Shown piece after piece: positions 7,381 to 38,934 of a stretch of DNA of 64,000 nt (positions are counted from its first letter, which is position 1; every line of letters starts with the position of its first letter). Where the stretch lies: assembly GCF_030505195.1 (NCBI RefSeq), contig NZ_CP129672.1, positions 5,242,501-5,306,500 of the forward strand. Reading direction: 5' to 3'. Under the pieces are notes generated by a model. It saw nothing but the letters and a program-made list of their open reading frames with translations. It did not search any database and was not told where the DNA came from. Origin of the DNA: Comamonas testosteroni. Lineage in GTDB: Bacteria; Pseudomonadota; Gammaproteobacteria; Burkholderiales; Burkholderiaceae_C. The position numbers and the translations under genes were made by a program.

Positions 7381-8112
7381 ATGTCGCGCCAAATTGTTCT
7401 GGATACAGAAACCACCGGTCTGTCGGCCATTGATGGCGATCGCCTGATCGAGCTGGGCTGCGTGGAGCTGGTAAACCGAAAGCTCACCGGCAACAATCTG
7501 CATCTGTACTTCAATGCGGGTCGCGACAGCCACCCAGATGCCCTGCGCGTGCACGGCATCACGACCGAGTTCCTCAAGGACAAGCCGCGCTTTGAGGAAA
7601 AGATCGACGAGATCTGGGAGTATCTGCAAGGCGCAGAACTCATCATCCACAATGCACCGTTCGACCTGGGCTTTCTGAACAACGAGCTCAAGCTGGCCAA
7701 GCGTCCGCCGCTCAAGCAGTGCGTGGGGGGCGTCATTGACACTCTGGTCATGGCCAAGGAGATGTATCCGGGCAAGCGCAACTCGCTGGACTCGCTGTGT
7801 GATCGTCTGGGTGTCGACAACTCCAACCGTACGCTGCACGGCGCCTTGCTCGATGCGGAGCTGCTGGCGGATGTCTATATCAATCTGACGCGCGGGCAAG
7901 ATGCCTTGCTCATGACAGAGGAGCCTGCAGATGCCCCGGCGGCCGGGACGATGATTGTTGCCTCGGTGGACCTGAGCAGCTTCAAGCTGCCGGTGCTGCG
8001 TGCCAACGAGCAGGAGCAGGCGGCCCACGATGAGGTGCTCAAGCAGATGGATAAATCCAGCGGTGGCAAGACCGCTTGGCGAAACTTTGAAAATGTGAGC
8101 GCCAATCCCTGA
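7381..8112 (+). CDS. dnaQ: DNA polymerase III epsilon subunit (3'-5' proofreading exonuclease)
   Basis: A 243-residue DnaQ, the proofreading subunit of the replicative polymerase. The DEDDh exonuclease residues are visible: Asp8 and Glu10 (LDTETTG), Asp95 (HNAPFDLGF), and His153 with Asp158 (HGALLDAEL). Residues after ~185 form the linker and the C-terminal segment that binds the polymerase alpha subunit. The ATG at 7381 follows a GGAGAG ribosome site. The gene ends 16 bases before tRNA-Val, and readthrough into the tRNA is possible. Confidence 0.95.
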   Translation: MSRQIVLDTETTGLSAIDGDRLIELGCVELVNRKLTGNNLHLYFNAGRDSHPDALRVHGITTEFLKDKPRFEEKIDEIWEYLQGAELIIHNAPFDLGFLNNELKLAKRPPLKQCVGGVIDTLVMAKEMYPGKRNSLDSLCDRLGVDNSNRTLHGALLDAELLADVYINLTRGQDALLMTEEPADAPAAGTMIVASVDLSSFKLPVLRANEQEQAAHDEVLKQMDKSSGGKTAWRNFENVSANP

Positions 8113-27425: not shown

Positions 27426-29402
27426 TCAATATTGCACATTGAGCTGGTAGATGGCCGTGGTGCCGCTGACCTCGTTGCCCACCATCAGTAGCGGCTTGCC
27501 GTTGGGCGACTTGGCTGCGGAAATGAAGTGCAGGCCTTCGGGGCCCAGATCACCCACATCGCTCAGAGCAGTGCCTGTCACCGGAGACTTGCTGTCAAAG
27601 CTGGCCGTCCAGTTCTCGCGAGTGTTCAGATAGTCGATCTGCTTGGGTGCCTTGGGATCGGTGATGTCGAACACTAGAATGCCGCCCATGCGTTCCAGGC
27701 CCACAAAGACAAAGGTCTTGGTGCCGATCTGGCCCACGGTCAGGCCTTCGGGCTCGGGACCCTTGGCGCTGCTGCGCGCATCGAGCCTGGCCGTTTCGTC
27801 ATGACCGGTGTTGAAGTAGGTGGCGCAGGCAATGTCACGTTTGGCGCCCAGCTTGCATTCGGGGCTGGCGATGAATTTTTCGATGGCCGCGCCAGAGTCC
27901 CAGACCTGCTTGCCCTTGGCATCCCAGATGGAGATGGAGCGACCTCCATAGGCATAGATCCTGTCATAGGTCAGATATCCCTTGCCGTCCTTGACGGGGT
28001 TGCCGCTGCTGTCTGTCTGGTAGCCCATGGTCCAGGTGACCTTGAGGCGGCCCAGTTTGTCGTCGTCGCGGCAGGTCTTGGGATCTGCGCCAACAGCGCC
28101 GCACCAGGCAAAGTTGGCGCCATTCAGATAGGCGCCGCTGGCCAGCCTGGCCAGATGGGCGGGCAGGTCGTCGCCCGCACGGCGCAGAAAGCCGTCCTTG
28201 TGCACCAGATGCTTGATGCGCCACTCTTCCACAAAACCCTTGGTCACATCGCCTGCCGAAGCCGGGGTGCCGTTCGTCTTGTCGGCGGCCGTGCCGAAAT
28301 AGCTCTTGTTGCCTTCACCCCAGGCGCGTGCATCGCCTTCATTGGCCGTGACCAGATAGGTTGCCCCGTCGGCGGCCTTGTAGGCGGCGATGGAGTCAGG
28401 CTGGAACATGCCGAAGACGTTGGGGGCCTGGGCGATGTCGATGACCGGGCTCTTGCCGTCACTGTCAGCGAAGTCCAGCTCGTTGCCAATGGCGCCATGA
28501 TCCTTGTAGCCCAGTGCCACCACATCGGTCACGGTGGCGCTGGCAATGTCCACAATCGCCAGCGCATTGTTTTCCTGCAGTGTCACCCAGGCCGTCTTGC
28601 CGTCGGGGGCCACGGCGATGTATTCGGGCTCCAGGTCGTTGGCCACTGCGGCCGTTCCCAGGCCGTCTGCGGTCGGGCCGAAGATGCGCACGCCCTTGGC
28701 CAGCAACTGCGCCTTCTGGCTGTTGAAGGCCTTGAAGTCGGCAGTGCGAGCCACAGGCTTGGCGGGCGCGCTCACGTCGATCACACTGATCGAGCCTTCG
28801 GGGTCCATCTGGTAGTCATCGCTGGGCTCGCCCTCGTTGGCGACCACAATGGTCTTGCCGTCGGGGGTGAAGGTCAGCATATCGGGCAGGGCGCCCACGG
28901 GCACTTCGGCGATCACGCCGAGCTTGTCGGCGTCATAGATGACGACCATGCCCTTGTCCGTCTTGACCGATGCCTGCACGGCTGCAGCCACCAGGCCTCC
29001 ATGCACGGCCACGCTGTTGATCGAGGCCCCCGCACCCAGCGATAGCTTGGTGGCGTCCAGGCTGGCGAGCATGCGCGGTGCGGCAGGGTTGCTCATGTCC
29101 AGCACATCCAGCGCACCTTTCTGGGCGTTGACCACAAAGCCACGCTTGGTGACGGGATCGAAAGCCGTAATTTCAGCGGCGCTCTGCAAGAAGATGCCCG
29201 ACTGATAGCTGCCGATCTTTTCAAGCAGGAGCGAGACAGGCGTCTTCTCGGGTTCGGGGGCCGGTGTCGGGACTTCGGGGTTCGGAGCAGGCGCTGGGGT
29301 GGTGCTGTTCGTGTTGTTGTCGTCACCACCGCAGGCGGCCAGGGCGGCGGCTGCGATCAGGGAAATCAGAAGAGGTTGGCGCAAGGCAAGTGCAGATGTC
29401 AT
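27426..29402 (-). CDS. choice-of-anchor I family lipoprotein (beta-propeller-like)
   Basis: A 658-residue exported protein. The lipoprotein signal is PLLISLIAAAALAACGGDD, with the acylated Cys in LAAC at residue 24. A Pro/Thr-rich linker (TTPAPAPNPEVPTPAPEPE) follows. The remainder has WD/YVTN-like repeats (TFTPDGKTIVVANEGEPSDDYQMDPEGSISVIDV; YIAVAPDGKTAWVTLQENNALAIVDI; GPEPEGLTVGQIGTKTFVFVGLERMGGILVFDI), matching the choice-of-anchor I / surface glycoprotein family. Its function is unknown; some relatives are linked to phosphatase activity. The start was chosen for the lipoprotein signal; the frame extends 30 codons upstream. It is followed by an intrinsic terminator and is transcribed alone. 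Confidence 0.85.
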   Translation of the reverse strand: MTSALALRQPLLISLIAAAALAACGGDDNNTNSTTPAPAPNPEVPTPAPEPEKTPVSLLLEKIGSYQSGIFLQSAAEITAFDPVTKRGFVVNAQKGALDVLDMSNPAAPRMLASLDATKLSLGAGASINSVAVHGGLVAAAVQASVKTDKGMVVIYDADKLGVIAEVPVGALPDMLTFTPDGKTIVVANEGEPSDDYQMDPEGSISVIDVSAPAKPVARTADFKAFNSQKAQLLAKGVRIFGPTADGLGTAAVANDLEPEYIAVAPDGKTAWVTLQENNALAIVDIASATVTDVVALGYKDHGAIGNELDFADSDGKSPVIDIAQAPNVFGMFQPDSIAAYKAADGATYLVTANEGDARAWGEGNKSYFGTAADKTNGTPASAGDVTKGFVEEWRIKHLVHKDGFLRRAGDDLPAHLARLASGAYLNGANFAWCGAVGADPKTCRDDDKLGRLKVTWTMGYQTDSSGNPVKDGKGYLTYDRIYAYGGRSISIWDAKGKQVWDSGAAIEKFIASPECKLGAKRDIACATYFNTGHDETARLDARSSAKGPEPEGLTVGQIGTKTFVFVGLERMGGILVFDITDPKAPKQIDYLNTRENWTASFDSKSPVTGTALSDVGDLGPEGLHFISAAKSPNGKPLLMVGNEVSGTTAIYQLNVQY

Positions 29403-29934
29403 TGAGAGTTTGGCAGGTGCAGGAAGAAAACTACGATTTGTAACCAGCCTGTGTTTCATCGCTGTGAAACCGATTCGTGGTCTTTGCACCACAGGCCCTG
29501 CAAACCGCTTGGCAGTTGCTATACCAAGCCAATAAACTCGCCAGCCTTTACCCCACTTGCGTTATCCGCTCTCATTTTCGAGGTGCACCATGTCCTGCCA
29601 GATTCGTTTGCGCTAAACGACTTCGCCACACGCTGATCTTTCAGGTGTGCGCTGCGGTATGGACTTATCGGCCCCCTGAGGCGCATGGCCCGGGTGGCCT
29701 GCCGCCCCAAAGGGGCATTTCTTCACGATGGGCAAGCCCTTGCCCGGCGTTTGCGATCGGGCTCGAGCCCCGGTCCCGCGCTTTTCCACTCTCTGAATCC
29801 CGGCCTGCCCTTTGCTCGGCGGCCAGGTGCTTTTGTCTTCGCCCGATGGTGGCGGCGAGTGCCGCTTTCGTTGTCCTTGGTTTGTCTGCCACGTCTTTTG
29901 GCGCGTGGCTTATTCCCTTTTTGGAAAGCACAAC
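29403..29934. other. 532-base intergenic region with inverted repeats upstream of the RNA repair genes
   Basis: No convincing gene. From 29672 it contains CCCCCTGAGGCGC, the same opening as the three-copy structured repeat, and then three GC-rich inverted repeats: GCCCC/GGGGC with AAA loop (29704-29716), GGGCAAG/CTTGCCC (29730-29745) and GGGCTCGAGCCC (29759-29770). It may be a diverged, longer relative of the repeat. It also has to hold the promoters of the divergent lipoprotein and RNA ligase genes, which I could not pin down. Confidence 0.5.
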
Positions 29935-30771
29935 ATGACTACTTCCCATTTATTCAATCTGGAGATTCTCAAATATCCGCGCACGCCGCATCTGCGTGGC
30001 TCGCGGCTGCAGGTCGGTGATCAGGCCGATGCCGTGTCCTATGAAGCACTGGCCGGCCGGCATATCGTGGTCGAGGAAAAGCTCGACGGCGCCAATGCGG
30101 CGCTGAGCTTTGGCGCCGACGGCAGTTTGCTGCTGCAGTCGCGCGGCCACTATCTGCAAGCCGATCAGATGGGCGGGCGCGAGCGTCAGTTCAACGCCTG
30201 CAAGCAATGGGCCCGAGCCCATGAAAGCGCGCTGATGGCGCTGCTGGACGATCGCTATGTGATGTATGGCGAATGGCTGTATGCCAAGCACTCGCTGTAC
30301 TACGACGCGTTGCCGCACTGGTTTTGCGAGTTCGACATCTGGGACCGCGTGGCGCAGCAGTTTCTGGATACGCCGCAGCGTCATGCGCTGCTGGACAGTG
30401 TGCCCGTGGTGTCCGTGCCTGTGCTCTACGCCGGTATCGCACCGAGACGCATGCAGGATTTGCTGGCATTGCTGGCACCGTCCCTGGGGCGAAGCGCTCG
30501 CTGGAAGGCGGTGTTCGAGGATCAGGTGCAAAGGCAGAAGCTGGATCTGCCGCTGGCTTGGCGCCAGACCGACAGATCCGAACTTGCCGAAGGTCTGTAT
30601 ATCAAGGTCGAGGAGAACGGCCAGACCGTGGAGCGTTACAAGTTCGTGCGCTCCGACTTTGTGCAGGTGATCCTGGAATCGGGCTCGCACCACAGCGAGC
30701 GGCCCATCGTCGCCAACGGTCTGCGTGCAGGTGTCGATATCTTTGCCAGCAAGATTCAAAAAAGCTGGTGA
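29935..30771 (+). CDS. ATP-dependent RNA ligase (T4 Rnl2-like nucleotidyltransferase)
   Basis: A 278-residue covalent nucleotidyltransferase of the RNA ligase type. Motif I is EKLDG with the predicted AMP-accepting Lys49; motif III is YGEWLYA (111-117), IIIa is FCEFDIWD (130-137), motif IV is EGLYIK (219-224) and motif V is YKFVRSDF (235-242). No OB-fold or DNA-ligase zinc or BRCT domain is present, which argues for RNA rather than DNA ligation. The ATG at 29935 is chosen because the upstream open part has no motifs. The next gene, an end-healing HD-Pnk-like enzyme, makes a break-sealing pair. Confidence 0.88.
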   Translation: MTTSHLFNLEILKYPRTPHLRGSRLQVGDQADAVSYEALAGRHIVVEEKLDGANAALSFGADGSLLLQSRGHYLQADQMGGRERQFNACKQWARAHESALMALLDDRYVMYGEWLYAKHSLYYDALPHWFCEFDIWDRVAQQFLDTPQRHALLDSVPVVSVPVLYAGIAPRRMQDLLALLAPSLGRSARWKAVFEDQVQRQKLDLPLAWRQTDRSELAEGLYIKVEENGQTVERYKFVRSDFVQVILESGSHHSERPIVANGLRAGVDIFASKIQKSW

Positions 30772-30785
30772 GGCTTGTCCAACAA

Positions 30786-30803
30786 GCGCTGATAGCTATC
30801 AAA
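30786..30803. repeat. 18-base repeat shared with 38917-38934
   Basis: GCGCTGATAGCTATCAAA occurs here and again at 38917-38934. Both copies lie 24-41 bases upstream of a start codon, downstream of another gene on the same strand. TGATAGCTATCA inside it is a 12-base palindrome. Confidence 0.8.
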
Positions 30804-30844
30804 GCCGTGGCTTTCATGAAGAGGCTGCGGTGAAAGGAGAACTT

Positions 30845-31990
30845 ATGTGGAGTTGGAAACAGATCGCGGCCCTGGTGCCGCATTCCACTCACGACTCGGT
30901 GGACTGGGCGGCCTGCCTGGACGCCTTCCCGCAACTGGAGCTGGCCAAGACCACGCCGCAAGACCCTGTCTACCATGCCGAAGGCGATGTCTGGACGCAT
31001 ACGCAGATGGTGGTGAGCGAACTGCTGCAGGATGGCGACTATACGGGGCTCACCAACGAGGAGCGCGAGACGGTCTTTCTGGCCGCGCTGCTGCACGATG
31101 TCGCCAAGTGCTCGACCACGCAGATCGCCGACGACGGCCGCATCTCGCAACCGGGCCACTCACGTCGGGGGGCGCTGGATGCGCGGCTCATGCTCTGGGA
31201 GGCTGGCACGCCCGTGTCCCTGCGCGAGGCGGTCTGCCGCCTGATTGCAGTGCATCAGGTGCCGTTCTTTGCCTTTGCCGATTCGCGCCGAGGCGTCTCG
31301 CCCGAGTTCATGGTCAGAGAGCTGTCCTGGCAGGTCGATCTGCATTTGCTGGTGCTACTGGCTCGTGCCGATATTCGCGGCCGCATCTGTCCCGATGTGG
31401 GCAATGTGCTGGTGAATATCGAGCTGTTCAGGGAGCTGGCGCTGGAAGAGGGCTGTTTGCGCAAGCCGCGAAGCTTTGCTTCGGCCGAGACGGCAGTGCG
31501 CTATTTCCGCGGTGCCGAGCTGCACCCGGACTACGCCTTGCACGAAGAGCCGGGCTCGCGCGTCATCGTCATGTGCGGTCTGCCAGCATCGGGCAAGAAC
31601 CACTGGGTGGTGCAGCATCATCCGGGCTTGCCCGTGGTGTCGTTTGACGATGCGCGCGCCGAGCTGGGCTTGCGCCATGGCGAGAACGAGGGCGCTGCTG
31701 CCCACCGAGCCGTGGACAAGGCCAAGAGCCTGCTGCGCGCCAAGGCTGCCTTCGTCTGGAACGCCACGCACCTGTCCAGGCAGATGCGTGGCAAGACGTT
31801 GGAGCTGTGCCTGGCCTATGGCGCACAGGTGGGGTTGGTGCATCTGGAGGCGAGCAGGCCCACTTTGCTGGCGCGCAACAGCAAGCGCGACACCACACTC
31901 GGCAATGCCGCATTGCTGGGCATGTTGCACCGATGGGAGGTGCCCTTGCCGACCGAGGCGCATGGGCTGCAACTGCTGGTCAACGAGTAG
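30845..31990 (+). CDS. HD-Pnk-type RNA end-healing enzyme: HD phosphoesterase plus P-loop polynucleotide kinase
   Basis: A 381-residue two-domain protein. Residues ~45-180 are an HD phosphohydrolase domain with His52, His84-Asp85 (LLHDVAK), His105 (GHSRRGA), His137 (HQVPFF) and Asp176 (RADIRG). Residues ~238-381 are a P-loop kinase of the AAA_33/Pnk type: CGLPASGKN (Lys251; the usual Ser/Thr after Lys is Asn), the acidic pair in VVSFDDAR, and the NATHLSRQMR motif. This order matches HD-Pnk enzymes known to remove 2',3'-cyclic phosphate and to phosphorylate 5'-OH ends. AAAGGAGAAC gives the ATG at 30845. It follows the RNA ligase by 73 bases. Confidence 0.87.
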   Translation: MWSWKQIAALVPHSTHDSVDWAACLDAFPQLELAKTTPQDPVYHAEGDVWTHTQMVVSELLQDGDYTGLTNEERETVFLAALLHDVAKCSTTQIADDGRISQPGHSRRGALDARLMLWEAGTPVSLREAVCRLIAVHQVPFFAFADSRRGVSPEFMVRELSWQVDLHLLVLLARADIRGRICPDVGNVLVNIELFRELALEEGCLRKPRSFASAETAVRYFRGAELHPDYALHEEPGSRVIVMCGLPASGKNHWVVQHHPGLPVVSFDDARAELGLRHGENEGAAAHRAVDKAKSLLRAKAAFVWNATHLSRQMRGKTLELCLAYGAQVGLVHLEASRPTLLARNSKRDTTLGNAALLGMLHRWEVPLPTEAHGLQLLVNE

Positions 31991-32003
31991 CTCAAGCCAA
32001 AAC

Positions 32004-32035
32004 AAAAAGGGCCTGGAAATTTCCAGGCCCTTTTT
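32004..32035. terminator. strong bidirectional intrinsic terminator
   Basis: AAAAAGGGCCTGGAAA (32004-32019) is exactly complementary to TTTCCAGGCCCTTTTT (32020-32035), a perfect 32-base palindrome with T-runs on both strands. It separates the HD-Pnk gene from the convergent MFS gene. Confidence 0.92.
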
Positions 32036-32053
32036 TGTCGCGAGATGGCGGAT

Positions 32054-33292
32054 TCATGGCCGCTGCATGGCTTGCTGGTAGCCCTTGGGATTGAAGCGTG
32101 TCACCAGCAGGCAGACCAGTGCGGCTACGCCGGCCTGATAGAGCCAGCCGGCCGTCCAGTTGCCGCTGATCTGGTGCAGTTGCGCCATGACCAGAGGGGC
32201 CAGTGCTGCAAGGATGAAGCCGCCGCCCTGCATCAGCGAGTTCAGCGCGCCGGCCTGTGTGGGTGAAGGCAGATGGTCCAATGCCACCAGCATGAAGAGC
32301 GAAAAGCAGCCTCCCAGGCCCAGGCCCAGCACGATGGCATTGAGTGTGGGCATGGCGTCGGGCCAGAGCCCGAGGCCCGCAAAGCCGATGATCTGCAGTA
32401 GCAAGGCCAGCATGAGCCAGCGGCGACGGTCCAGGCTGCGGCGCGCGAGAGCGGGCATGGCCAGTGCCGATGCGGCCTGCGCAATGGACAGAATGGCCAG
32501 CAGCGAGCCGCTTTGCGTGGCCGTCCAGCCATGGGTTTGATAGAACGGAGCGAGCCAGGCAACGGTGGAGCCATAACCGCCGTTCATCAGGCCAAAGCTG
32601 ATCAGCAGCAGCCAGGTGCGGCCACGGCGCAGCAGCCAGCCGGTGTCGCTGTCGCTGTTGGCCTGTACCAGGGGCGCGGAGGGCATACGGGCAACGGGCT
32701 CGTGCATCAGGGTCAGCGCATGCCAAGCCAGCGGCAATGCCAGCAGCACCGGAATGGCCCAGATGGCCAGCGAAGCCTGCCAGCTCAGACCCAGCTGCAT
32801 GGCCACGGGCGAAAGCTGGGCGCTGAGCGCGCCGCCGCCCATGAGTGCAGCCGAATACAGGCCCATCATGGGCGCCACGTTGTGGGGAGACTGGCGCTTG
32901 ATGAGTCCCGGCAGAATGCTTTGCGCCAGCGCCACGCCCGCGCCGCACAGGCCGGCCGTGACGATCAGCAGACTGCCGGTGGCGGCACCTGCAGGCGTCA
33001 GGCGCAGGGCGCAGCCCAGCGCAATCAGCAGCAGCGATGCGCAGATGGCGGCGCGCGCGCCCCAGCGTCGCAGGGCCGTGGGAGCAAGCCAGCCGCCAAT
33101 GCCCATCAGCGCCATGGGTAGCAGCGTGAGCCAGGAAAAGCTGCGCAAATCCATGCCCGTGGCCTGTTGTATGGTCGGGGCCAAGGGGCCTGGAGCCGTC
33201 AGAAAAGGACGCAGATTGATGGTGACCAGTATCACCACGCCCAGCCACAACAATGGCGGCATGCGGTGCGTTCGGGAAGATGTCGATGTCAT
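32054..33292 (-). CDS. CynX/NimT-family MFS transporter
   Basis: A 412-residue membrane protein with about twelve hydrophobic segments. The ILVTINLRPFLTAPGPLAPTIQ segment near residue 22, with asparagine-leucine-arginine-proline, is characteristic of the CynX/NimT (YeaN) group, which includes exporters of nitroimidazoles and possibly cyanate importers. The start ATG at 33292 gives the usual length. Substrate unknown; the deaminase gene upstream on the same strand is 66 bases away and could be co-transcribed. Confidence 0.85.
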   Translation of the reverse strand: MTSTSSRTHRMPPLLWLGVVILVTINLRPFLTAPGPLAPTIQQATGMDLRSFSWLTLLPMALMGIGGWLAPTALRRWGARAAICASLLLIALGCALRLTPAGAATGSLLIVTAGLCGAGVALAQSILPGLIKRQSPHNVAPMMGLYSAALMGGGALSAQLSPVAMQLGLSWQASLAIWAIPVLLALPLAWHALTLMHEPVARMPSAPLVQANSDSDTGWLLRRGRTWLLLISFGLMNGGYGSTVAWLAPFYQTHGWTATQSGSLLAILSIAQAASALAMPALARRSLDRRRWLMLALLLQIIGFAGLGLWPDAMPTLNAIVLGLGLGGCFSLFMLVALDHLPSPTQAGALNSLMQGGGFILAALAPLVMAQLHQISGNWTAGWLYQAGVAALVCLLVTRFNPKGYQQAMQRP

Positions 33293-38826: not shown

Positions 38827-38916
38827 GATAGACAGGTTGCTACTGTTTTATGAGCTAGTAGCGCCCGTTCAGTATGTGTTTTAGGTAGAAAATGCTGTCA
38901 AAGTCTTTGAGGTAAG

Positions 38917-38934
38917 GCGCTGATAGCTATCAAA
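38917..38934. repeat. 18-base repeat shared with 30786-30803
   Basis: An exact second copy of GCGCTGATAGCTATCAAA, 24 bases upstream of the MDR oxidoreductase start. A loose hairpin GCTACT/AGTAGC lies about 60 bases before it. Confidence 0.8.

Follow-up and report, generated by a model that had tools for sequence, protein, structure and literature searches.

A co-inherited RNA ligase-family/HD-Pnk gene pair of Comamonas testosteroni lies behind a conserved upstream-ORF leader and may repair RNA when translation fails

A ligase gene next to a gene for an enzyme predicted to heal broken nucleic-acid ends raises the question of when the two act and which breaks they mend. Such a pair lies in the window, the 64,000-nucleotide stretch of Comamonas testosteroni DNA analysed here. 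The original prediction, a cassette of an RNA ligase and an HD-Pnk enzyme, is borne out: both ORFs sit exactly at 29935–31990, each frame running from an ATG to its stop codon, and the quoted motifs are found (Table 1). That prediction held no regulatory clue. A conserved leader with an upstream ORF (uORF) is found 5′ of the ligase; if it reads the state of translation, it would answer when HD-Pnk and ligase act and would point to tRNA or rRNA breaks. We place slightly on the probable side the view that the cassette performs RNA repair gated by failing translation, for which we infer both the enzymatic activities and the switch.

Table 1. Features of the cassette and its leader in the window
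Feature	Coordinates	Strand	Basis
Putative sigma-70 promoter TTGGCA-18-TAAACT	29509..29538	+	2 promoter-like sites found vs 0.6 expected
Shine-Dalgarno GAGGTG of leader uORF	29580..29585	+	position kept in close relatives
8-codon upstream ORF, MSCQIRLR*	29590..29616	+	pattern search, shuffles, reading
Segment 1, CGAC segment right after uORF stop (ACGACTTCGCCACACGC); 3′ part opens hairpin H1	29617..29633	+	
Hairpin H1 (CACACGC..GGTGTG), then conserved GCGCTGCGG	29627..29659	+	
Segment 2 region: candidate 5′ arms (GCTTTC / GTTGT) for a hairpin across the ligase start, inner stem GCCACG..CGTGGC	29858..29909	+	
Segment 3: ligase Shine-Dalgarno GGAAAG + CACAAC before start codon	29923..29934	+	
Minimal nucleotidyltransferase of the ATP-dependent RNA ligase family (PF09414), 278 aa	29935..30771	+	ORF, Pfam, fold, alignment
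HD-Pnk: N-terminal HD phosphoesterase + C-terminal P-loop polynucleotide kinase, 381 aa	30845..31990	+	ORF, Pfam, fold, alignment
Bidirectional intrinsic-terminator-like hairpin, between pair and convergent ORF 32054-33292	32004..32035	.	terminator scoring

The ligase matches RNA_ligase (E 7e-36) as its only Pfam domain. Pfam, fold search and alignment locate the nucleotidyltransferase motifs conventionally named I, III, IIIa, IV and V, and K49, D51, G52, G112, E113, E219, G220, K224 and K236 are invariant in an 18-sequence alignment. In a PDB fold search with the ligase model, Naegleria Rnl, T4 Rnl2 and TbREL1 rank above DNA ligases. The description as Rnl2-like holds for the catalytic domain, whose motifs and fold are common to the T4 RNA ligase 2 family; it does not extend to the C-terminal domain of that family, which is not found.

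HD-Pnk comprises an HD domain (PF01966, residues 52–141) and an AAA_33 domain (PF13671, residues 240–362). Its predicted model (pLDDT 93) has polynucleotide kinases as top fold matches, and PFKFB-type and seryl-tRNA kinases also rank high. The HD-domain residues H52, H84, D85, H105, H137 and D176, among which the metal ligands are assigned from HD proteins in general, are invariant in 18/18 aligned sequences, as are the kinase residues D268 and R348. The position equivalent to R271 holds R in 49, K in 7 and C in 1 of 57 sequences. These equivalents are mostly assigned from the roles of the Asp/Arg and Arg126 residues of T4 Pnk, whose alignment with HD-Pnk (1ly1) has an E of 1. The P-loop reads GLPASGKN (codons 31577–31600), which had been taken as an oddity. 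Among 54 unique relatives, the residue after GK is N in 33, D in 18 and S in 3, so that N or D, present in 51, is normal for the subfamily; GK[N/D] is a subfamily trait, and the reading as a degenerate P-loop is rejected since the motif runs through the whole subfamily. To our knowledge, a canonical GK[S/T] Walker A is not a defining HD-Pnk feature. A coupling of the N/D residue with the R271 position was also considered and found not strict.

The assignment of end healing and sealing to the two genes has good support from the protein families, the predicted folds, the invariant catalytic residues and the joint inheritance of the genes. The pair belongs to a known kind, and HD-Pnk is already published; enzymes of the Runella slithyformis type have an N-terminal HD and a C-terminal Pnk domain and are often encoded beside an ATP-dependent ligase. 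The uORF leader and the GKN/GKD P-loop, in place of the GKS of Deinococcus radiodurans, set the pair apart from these enzymes.

The suggested linkage of the two genes extends to related genomes: HD-Pnk occurs in 13 of 250 family genomes, and all 13 also carry the ligase. A profile scan of genome contigs places a ligase match upstream of HD-Pnk at 27/27 loci, at most 80 nt away in 26, a pairing far beyond chance. Because of this co-occurrence in 13/13 genomes, and because the flanking genes differ between genera, we conclude that the pair travels as one unit. A larger operon is rejected: flanking genes are common to at most 7 of 26 loci, and across all 26 only the pair recurs, with ORFs overlapping it. 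A phylum-wide scan was discarded, its 90/398 matches being mostly HD-only proteins, probably CCA-adding enzymes. The strong terminator claimed behind the pair corresponds to a strong bidirectional terminator-like hairpin, scored on the minus strand and symmetrical in its stem. A blastn search for the leader DNA in plasmids gave no match; the pair of a P. aeruginosa plasmid (L074) carries the uORF. On pMPPla107 and pBASL58 the uORF leader was not seen before the HD-Pnk genes, and the gene preceding each matches no Pfam family.

The uORF is short and has a Shine-Dalgarno sequence at a conserved position, as in a ribosome-gated attenuator, and its translation is predicted. From 76 upstream regions, 51 differing in their last 250 nt were retained, of which 7 belong to lone-ligase relatives and were counted apart, leaving 44. 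The full-feature pattern, a 7–8-codon uORF with its own ribosome site and a stop just before a CGAC segment, was written after the leaders had been read and occurs in 36/44 regions versus 0/2200 shuffles; a looser definition gives 38/44 versus 201/2200. The uORF is absent in the lone-ligase relatives (0/7). The strict pattern fails in L003, L012, L043, L050, L077, L078, L079 and L083. In L043, L050 and L083 the uORF is recovered by the looser pattern or by reading, and in L003 it is split off; L012 and the Variovorax, Bosea and cyanobacterial plasmid pairs have no such uORF. In a set of 40 kept leaders, mostly pattern-selected (37 by pattern, with L043, L083 and L124 added by reading and L125 and L126 read but left out), 37 have a uORF of exactly 8 codons, 38 have CGC or TGC as its third codon, CGAC lies 1–5 nt behind the stop, and the distance from uORF to ligase ranges from 111 to 339 nt. 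Since the leaders are homologous, the loci are not independent.

A leader model matches 20 of the 24 HD-Pnk genomes of the genus, directly upstream of the pair, at least 9 of these 20 having supplied sequences to the model; 3 further HD-Pnk genomes carry the uORF by reading. It also matches 1 of 29 others, in which a ligase sits where the contig ends. In leaders of other genera, reading reveals a similar −10 element with GC-rich DNA behind it, again upstream of the uORF. Segment 1 occurs exactly once in the genome. Known RNA families over cut-off at 15 loci are confined to a P15 sRNA in L049, outside the leader, and at E up to 1 the region 29300–32200 has two weak matches, both on the terminator.

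Segment 2 could pair alternatively with segment 1 or with segment 3. Over 24 representative leaders in hand-made clades, pairing 1:2 is as low in 20/2000 cross-clade swaps and 0/300 composition shuffles, and pairing 2:3 in 0/2000 and 5/300, respectively. The swaps favour 2:3 and the shuffles favour 1:2; both pairings beat both controls over the 24 leaders, unevenly and not leader by leader. In the window itself, the start-site hairpin formed by 2:3 does not stand out from its controls (rank 0.52 among swaps, 0.80 among shuffles), and that of several other leaders, Pseudomonas included, is not above shuffles (ranks 0.59–0.80). In the Comamonas/Delftia clade, segment 1 is no better a partner of segment 2 than other stretches of the same leader. 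The hairpin alignment has a two-sided change at 1 of 14 predicted pairs, and the whole-leader fold is no better than shuffles (z −1.1). Compared with control ORFs, the ribosome site of the ligase shows no reduction in predicted accessibility (median 0.38 versus 0.43, p 0.09).

These features suggest a self-contained, horizontally moving RNA-repair cassette that would comprise its own promoter, the 8-codon uORF leader, ligase, HD-Pnk and terminator. By analogy with their families, HD-Pnk would strip a 2′,3′-cyclic or 3′ phosphate and phosphorylate the 5′-OH end, and the ligase would adenylate the 5′ phosphate and then seal. The leader would act as a ribosome-gated switch. In the off state, a hairpin would lie over the ligase ribosome site as long as ribosomes translating the uORF reach its stop codon and mask the CGAC segment just behind it. 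A cut tRNA, a damaged ribosome or failed initiation may leave the uORF incomplete; the uncovered CGAC segment would then pair with the 5′ arm of the hairpin and free the ligase ribosome site. In this way, damage to the translation machinery would itself switch on the enzymes that mend it.

Transcription attenuation is no less possible than translation attenuation: the same uORF might gate a terminator against an antiterminator, as proposed for armZ, a precedent described as transcription attenuation. U-rich stretches follow the stem in several leaders (GCCACG..CGTGGC then TTATTCCC in the window; GTCGTCGGTTTTTCCC in Pseudomonas), and composition shuffles are beaten more clearly by pairing 1:2 than by 2:3. 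However, the terminator-like sites in the window's leader are weak, with 5–9 pairs, and we regard this reading as rather unlikely. The locus might also be a plain pair of the known kind, as the Runella HD-Pnk paper reportedly describes, with the uORF as an unregulated leader gene that raises expression or marks the translation start. The variable uORF-to-ligase distance, the negative accessibility test and the weak start-site hairpin of many leaders fit this reading, as does a hypothesis, stated in the accessible part of its source, that leader genes raise expression. The constant 8 codons and the near-fixed stop-to-CGAC distance of the pattern-selected leaders, together with segment complementarity above controls, are nevertheless more than a plain enhancer explains, which makes it doubtful.

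As to the substrate, RNA appears favoured, as originally claimed, because RNA ligases are the best PDB matches, LexA-like sites are not enriched and the leader points to translation. On the other side stands a DNA role published, in the portion of the literature accessible to us, for the HD-Pnk of D. radiodurans. Both proteins are homologous to products of its operon DRB0098–DRB0100. DRB0098 likewise has an N-terminal HD and a C-terminal Pnk domain (32% identity over residues 37–375), whereas its P-loop is GKS and DRB0099 lies between ligase and HD-Pnk, where the window has no gene. DRB0100, a minimal ATP-dependent ligase of 210 aa, shares a similar core and a C-terminal H..P..N.L motif (hhalign probability 98.4); the window's ligase has a longer middle part. 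The kinase of the Deinococcus enzyme acts on a DNA oligonucleotide, and the accessible text links the protein to resistance to radiation and mitomycin C. In published assays, its partner ligase DRB0100 failed to seal either DNA or RNA. Within the 480 nt upstream, LexA-like sites occur no more often than in shuffles, and SOS control is therefore rejected: the best matches in 44 regions have 0 mismatches in 1 (L005), 1 in 3, 2 in 30 and 3 in 10, versus 0.6%, 11%, 70% and 18% of shuffles, and the window's best has 3. With RNA ligases first in the fold search, DRB0100 sealing no DNA, LexA-like sites at shuffle frequency and a leader that resembles a ribosome sensor, the role proposed for the Deinococcus operon, healing of DNA ends broken by radiation or crosslinks, is improbable here. 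The conserved leader makes the choice between RNA and DNA repair open to a simple reporter test. A search of the genome for PrrC/RloC-family anticodon nucleases found none over cut-off. Defence-system families were also considered; apart from Cas3 at E 0.011, there was no PADLOC match.

Other RNA-repair systems offer partial parallels. The Pnkp1-Rnl-Hen1 complex repairs ribotoxin-cleaved RNA, according to the accessible part of its description. It has the Hen1 methyltransferase as a third partner, whereas no third gene recurs with the window's pair across all 26 loci. The phosphatase of Pnkp1 is of a type different from the HD domain of HD-Pnk. The closest published logic is that of armZ, an RtcB-like gene preceded by the leader peptide PA5471.1 and induced by ribosome trouble. 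RtcB2-PrfH/ArmZ is also an RNA-ligase-family operon with a short uORF about 200–250 nt upstream, although its ligase family is unrelated; RtcB2-PrfH counters colicin E3, as far as the accessible text states. Because both RNA-ligase systems of the genus are headed by a short uORF, we propose that each acquired such a leader. The full proposal, which we hold to be evenly balanced, is that the Rnl/HD-Pnk pair of Comamonadaceae and Pseudomonas stands under a ribosome-gated leader whose 8-codon uORF, when left unfinished by the ribosome, releases the ligase start, that Rnl/HD-Pnk and RtcB2 each acquired a short-uORF leader, and that the substrate is RNA of the translation machinery. If true, unrelated RNA-repair operons would share one control principle. 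In this genus, the RtcB2-like gene is preceded by a uORF conserved at 16/19 loci; this uORF has 13 codons and a conserved peptide (PFA), whereas the Rnl/HD-Pnk uORF has 8 codons and a loose peptide.

The host resembles Comamonas testosteroni and has a 6.08 Mb genome, with the window at positions 5242501–5306500 of contig 1; the nearest named loci in a scan of named-genome contigs belong to C. testosteroni (94–95% identity in HD-Pnk). The ligase of the pair is the sole PF09414 match in the whole genome, and its partner combines an HD domain with a P-loop kinase domain. The terminator-like hairpin found 3' of the pair agrees with the original prediction that a terminator closes it. The ligase and HD-Pnk genes are separated by the first copy of an element with an internal palindrome, AGCGCTGATAGCTATCAAA (30785–30803 and 38916–38934), which has seven genome-wide copies with at most one mismatch, against 0 for the control.

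Features of the RNA-ligase loci in the host genome
Feature	Position	Strand	Basis or remark
Short upstream ORF (uORF), MSCQIRLR	29590-29616		window leader
RNA_ligase protein (PF09414), 278 aa	29935-30771	+	Pfam match
HD-Pnk, 381 aa	30845-31990	+	Pfam domain search
Terminator-like hairpin	32004-32035		hairpin scan
RtcB2-like gene (L120 / L128)	G000:C1:4472909-4474063	minus	uORF 200 nt upstream

AlphaFold2 models of both proteins were built from 18-sequence alignments. The top four PDB matches of the ligase model (mean pLDDT 77) are all from Naegleria RNA ligase, T4 Rnl2, and T. brucei RNA editing ligase 1, with low TM-scores of 0.41–0.50. The HD-Pnk model (pLDDT 93) first matches the C. thermocellum and mammalian polynucleotide kinases, then PFKFB-type kinases and O-phosphoseryl-tRNA kinase at lower ranks, and from rank 31 onward a tRNA-processing enzyme, presumably through the HD half. 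A weak match (E 1) aligns the functional residues Asp35, Arg38, and Arg126 of T4 Pnk with D268, R271, and R348 of HD-Pnk. D268 and R348 are kept in 18 of 18 aligned sequences, and the R271 position holds Arg in 49, Lys in 7, and Cys in 1 of 57. Arg126 of T4 Pnk is also covered in PMC1997131. Among 54 unique HD-Pnk sequences, the final P-loop residue is Asn in 33, Asp in 18, and Ser in 3, of which two are from Deinococcus and the third is a remote relative. The GKN motif, previously singled out as a departure from GKS/T, is therefore present as the mark of a subfamily rather than an oddity, since Asn or Asp occupies this position in 51 of the 54. GKD-type HD-Pnk relatives occur on large plasmids of other phyla (L081, Miltoncostaea oceani; L079, a cyanobacterium) and in a 462 kb record of an uncultured phage (L082).

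The gene pair is of a known kind, since relatives have been described in Deinococcus and Runella. A putative ATP-dependent ligase reportedly lies in the same operon as the Runella HD-Pnk. Over residues 37–375, D. radiodurans DRB0098 shares 32% identity with the present HD-Pnk, and its operon partner DRB0100 is a homolog of the ligase, both pMP1 genes being assigned from position and annotation. In PMC1997131, DRB0098 is a kinase on 5'-OH DNA ends with an unproven 3'-phosphatase, and DRB0100 self-adenylates but did not seal DNA or RNA; a title in the reference list of PMC9146567 links the Deinococcus radiodurans HD-Pnk to resistance against radiation and mitomycin C. The enzymes described here are a new member of this HD-Pnk/ligase kind, with a P-loop of the subfamily type.

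HD-Pnk is present in 13 of 250 family genomes and in 24 of 53 genomes of the genus Comamonas. The ligase is found in 21 of the family genomes, eight of which lack HD-Pnk and give partial matches (38–43%); the remainder are all 13 HD-Pnk genomes, so that the pair sought in related genomes by the original prediction is indeed conserved. The conserved neighbors sought alongside it did not emerge: only the pair, with ORFs overlapping it, is common to all 26 longer loci, and true neighbor genes are common to at most seven. In the named-genome scan, a ligase match lies upstream of HD-Pnk in 27 of 27 loci, within 80 nt in 26. Since the ligase accompanies HD-Pnk while true neighbors recur so rarely, the pair moves as a cassette. 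Not every HD-Pnk follows this arrangement: on plasmids pMPPla107 and pBASL58, the preceding gene gives no Pfam family match. On a Variovorax plasmid (L077), a small gene annotated as hypothetical (7612–7956) separates the two genes, and no uORF leader was seen upstream of this pair.

Ligase upstream regions with differing flanks share, by reading, a common layout, in which a promoter-like site is followed by a very short ORF preceded by a separate Shine-Dalgarno sequence (SD), a CGAC segment soon after its stop (segment 1), a variable stretch, and an arm near the ligase start (segment 2) predicted to pair alternatively with the CGAC segment or the ligase ribosome site (segment 3). A strict pattern set after reading the leaders (7–8 codons, SD, M[SPFH][RC] or MCC, CGAC no more than 12 nt away, located 100 nt or more upstream) is matched by 36 of 44 pair upstream regions, 0 of 7 ligase relatives without HD-Pnk, and 0 of 2200 dinucleotide shuffles. 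A loose pattern, accepting any ORF of 7–8 codons that has an SD and lies 100 nt or more upstream, is matched by 38 of 44 pair regions versus 201 of 2200 shuffles. In the 40 leaders kept for statistics, selected mostly by pattern, the uORF has eight codons in 37, codon 3 is CGC in 22, TGC in 16, and TGT and TTT in one each, the stop lies 1–5 nt from CGAC, and 32 different peptides are encoded. Because length, frame, and stop position are constant while residues vary, these sequences suggest that ribosome placement counts for more than the peptide. Comparison of the leaders supports well their reading as a conserved element. To our knowledge, the leader of an Rnl/HD-Pnk pair is undescribed; no description was found in literature searches (among the top matches where these were many), which is weak evidence of absence since subscription papers lay mostly outside their coverage.

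A covariance model of the uORF and the hairpin following it (H1) matches 22 of 53 Comamonas genomes. The match lies about 1.1–1.3 kb upstream of HD-Pnk in 20 of the 24 HD-Pnk genomes; at least nine of these 20 supplied model sequences and are therefore bound to match. The uORF MSRLFVT[CR] is present in a further three (G270, G272, and G290), which the model missed. In the 24th (G128), the match lies 25 kb from the cassette: promoter and uORF adjoin a transposase gene (Pfam DDE_Tnp_1; locus L123, G128:C1:1931500-1935500), and the cassette (L003; C. testosteroni-like genome) begins at the old uORF stop, after a stretch that also matches this transposase. Among the 29 genomes lacking an HD-Pnk match, one (G277) has a leader match, which precedes a ligase at a contig end. 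In Pseudomonas sp. MRCP1333 (L049), an Rfam P15 sRNA (2245–2364, minus) is located upstream, about 4.8 kb from the ligase.

Pairing was evaluated in 24 representatives against 2000 cross-clade swaps and 300 own-segment shuffles. Segments 1 and 2 pair at a native mean of -14.74 kcal/mol, compared with -13.56 (sd 0.47) for swaps, as low in 20/2000, and -11.22 (sd 0.53) for shuffles, as low in 0/300. The corresponding values for segments 3 and 2 are -14.16 native, -12.40 (sd 0.48; 0/2000) for swaps, and -13.11 (sd 0.50; 5/300) for shuffles. Both pairings hold across the set, because mean native energies lie below those of swaps and shuffles. The start-site hairpin formed by segments 3 and 2 is strong in some clades only (loci L047, L051, L058, L084, L009, and L124); it is not strong in the window (rank 0.52 for swaps, 0.80 for shuffles) or in Pseudomonas (0.59–0.80). 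In an 11-sequence alignment, one of 14 predicted pairs changes on both sides (U-A in 6, C-G in 5). Other results weigh against these structures. Compared with other windows of its own leader, segment 1 scores at or below 0.1 as the segment 2 partner in 10 of 38, mainly Pseudomonas and a few others, and is no outstanding partner within Comamonas or Delftia leaders. Ligase ribosome-site accessibility does not differ from that of 146 control ORFs, and the full leader folds with a z of -1.1.

Overall, the leader has moderate support as a switch, whose working may be as follows. Once the uORF is read to its end, the ribosome would sit on the CGAC segment right behind the stop, so that segment 2 stays free to pair across the ligase ribosome site (off). 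When the uORF is not completed, the CGAC segment would capture segment 2 and free the ligase ribosome site (on). It is equally possible that the same leader works by transcription attenuation.

A precedent is provided by P. aeruginosa armZ (PA5471, RtcB-like). Its leader peptide of 13 aa, PA5471.1, is encoded about 250 bp upstream, and induction is described with ribosome-targeting antibiotics and, through codons 3–4, in a cca mutant (PMC3516279, PMC12057347, and PMC13041342). RtcB matches occur at three loci in the host genome, one of which we read as RtcB2-like. Its 13-codon uORF, MSQTTNPFAVVYA, is likely the counterpart of PA5471.1. Three of 19 RtcB2-like loci of the genus lack such a uORF, one being cut at 19 nt upstream and two being the most remote, with the start codon unplaced; the other 16 carry it in the pattern MS[QRH]xxxPFAxxxA. 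With one uORF before the Rnl/HD-Pnk pair and another before the RtcB2-like gene, a short uORF leader thus occurs in each of two RNA-ligase systems of this genus that are unrelated to one another.
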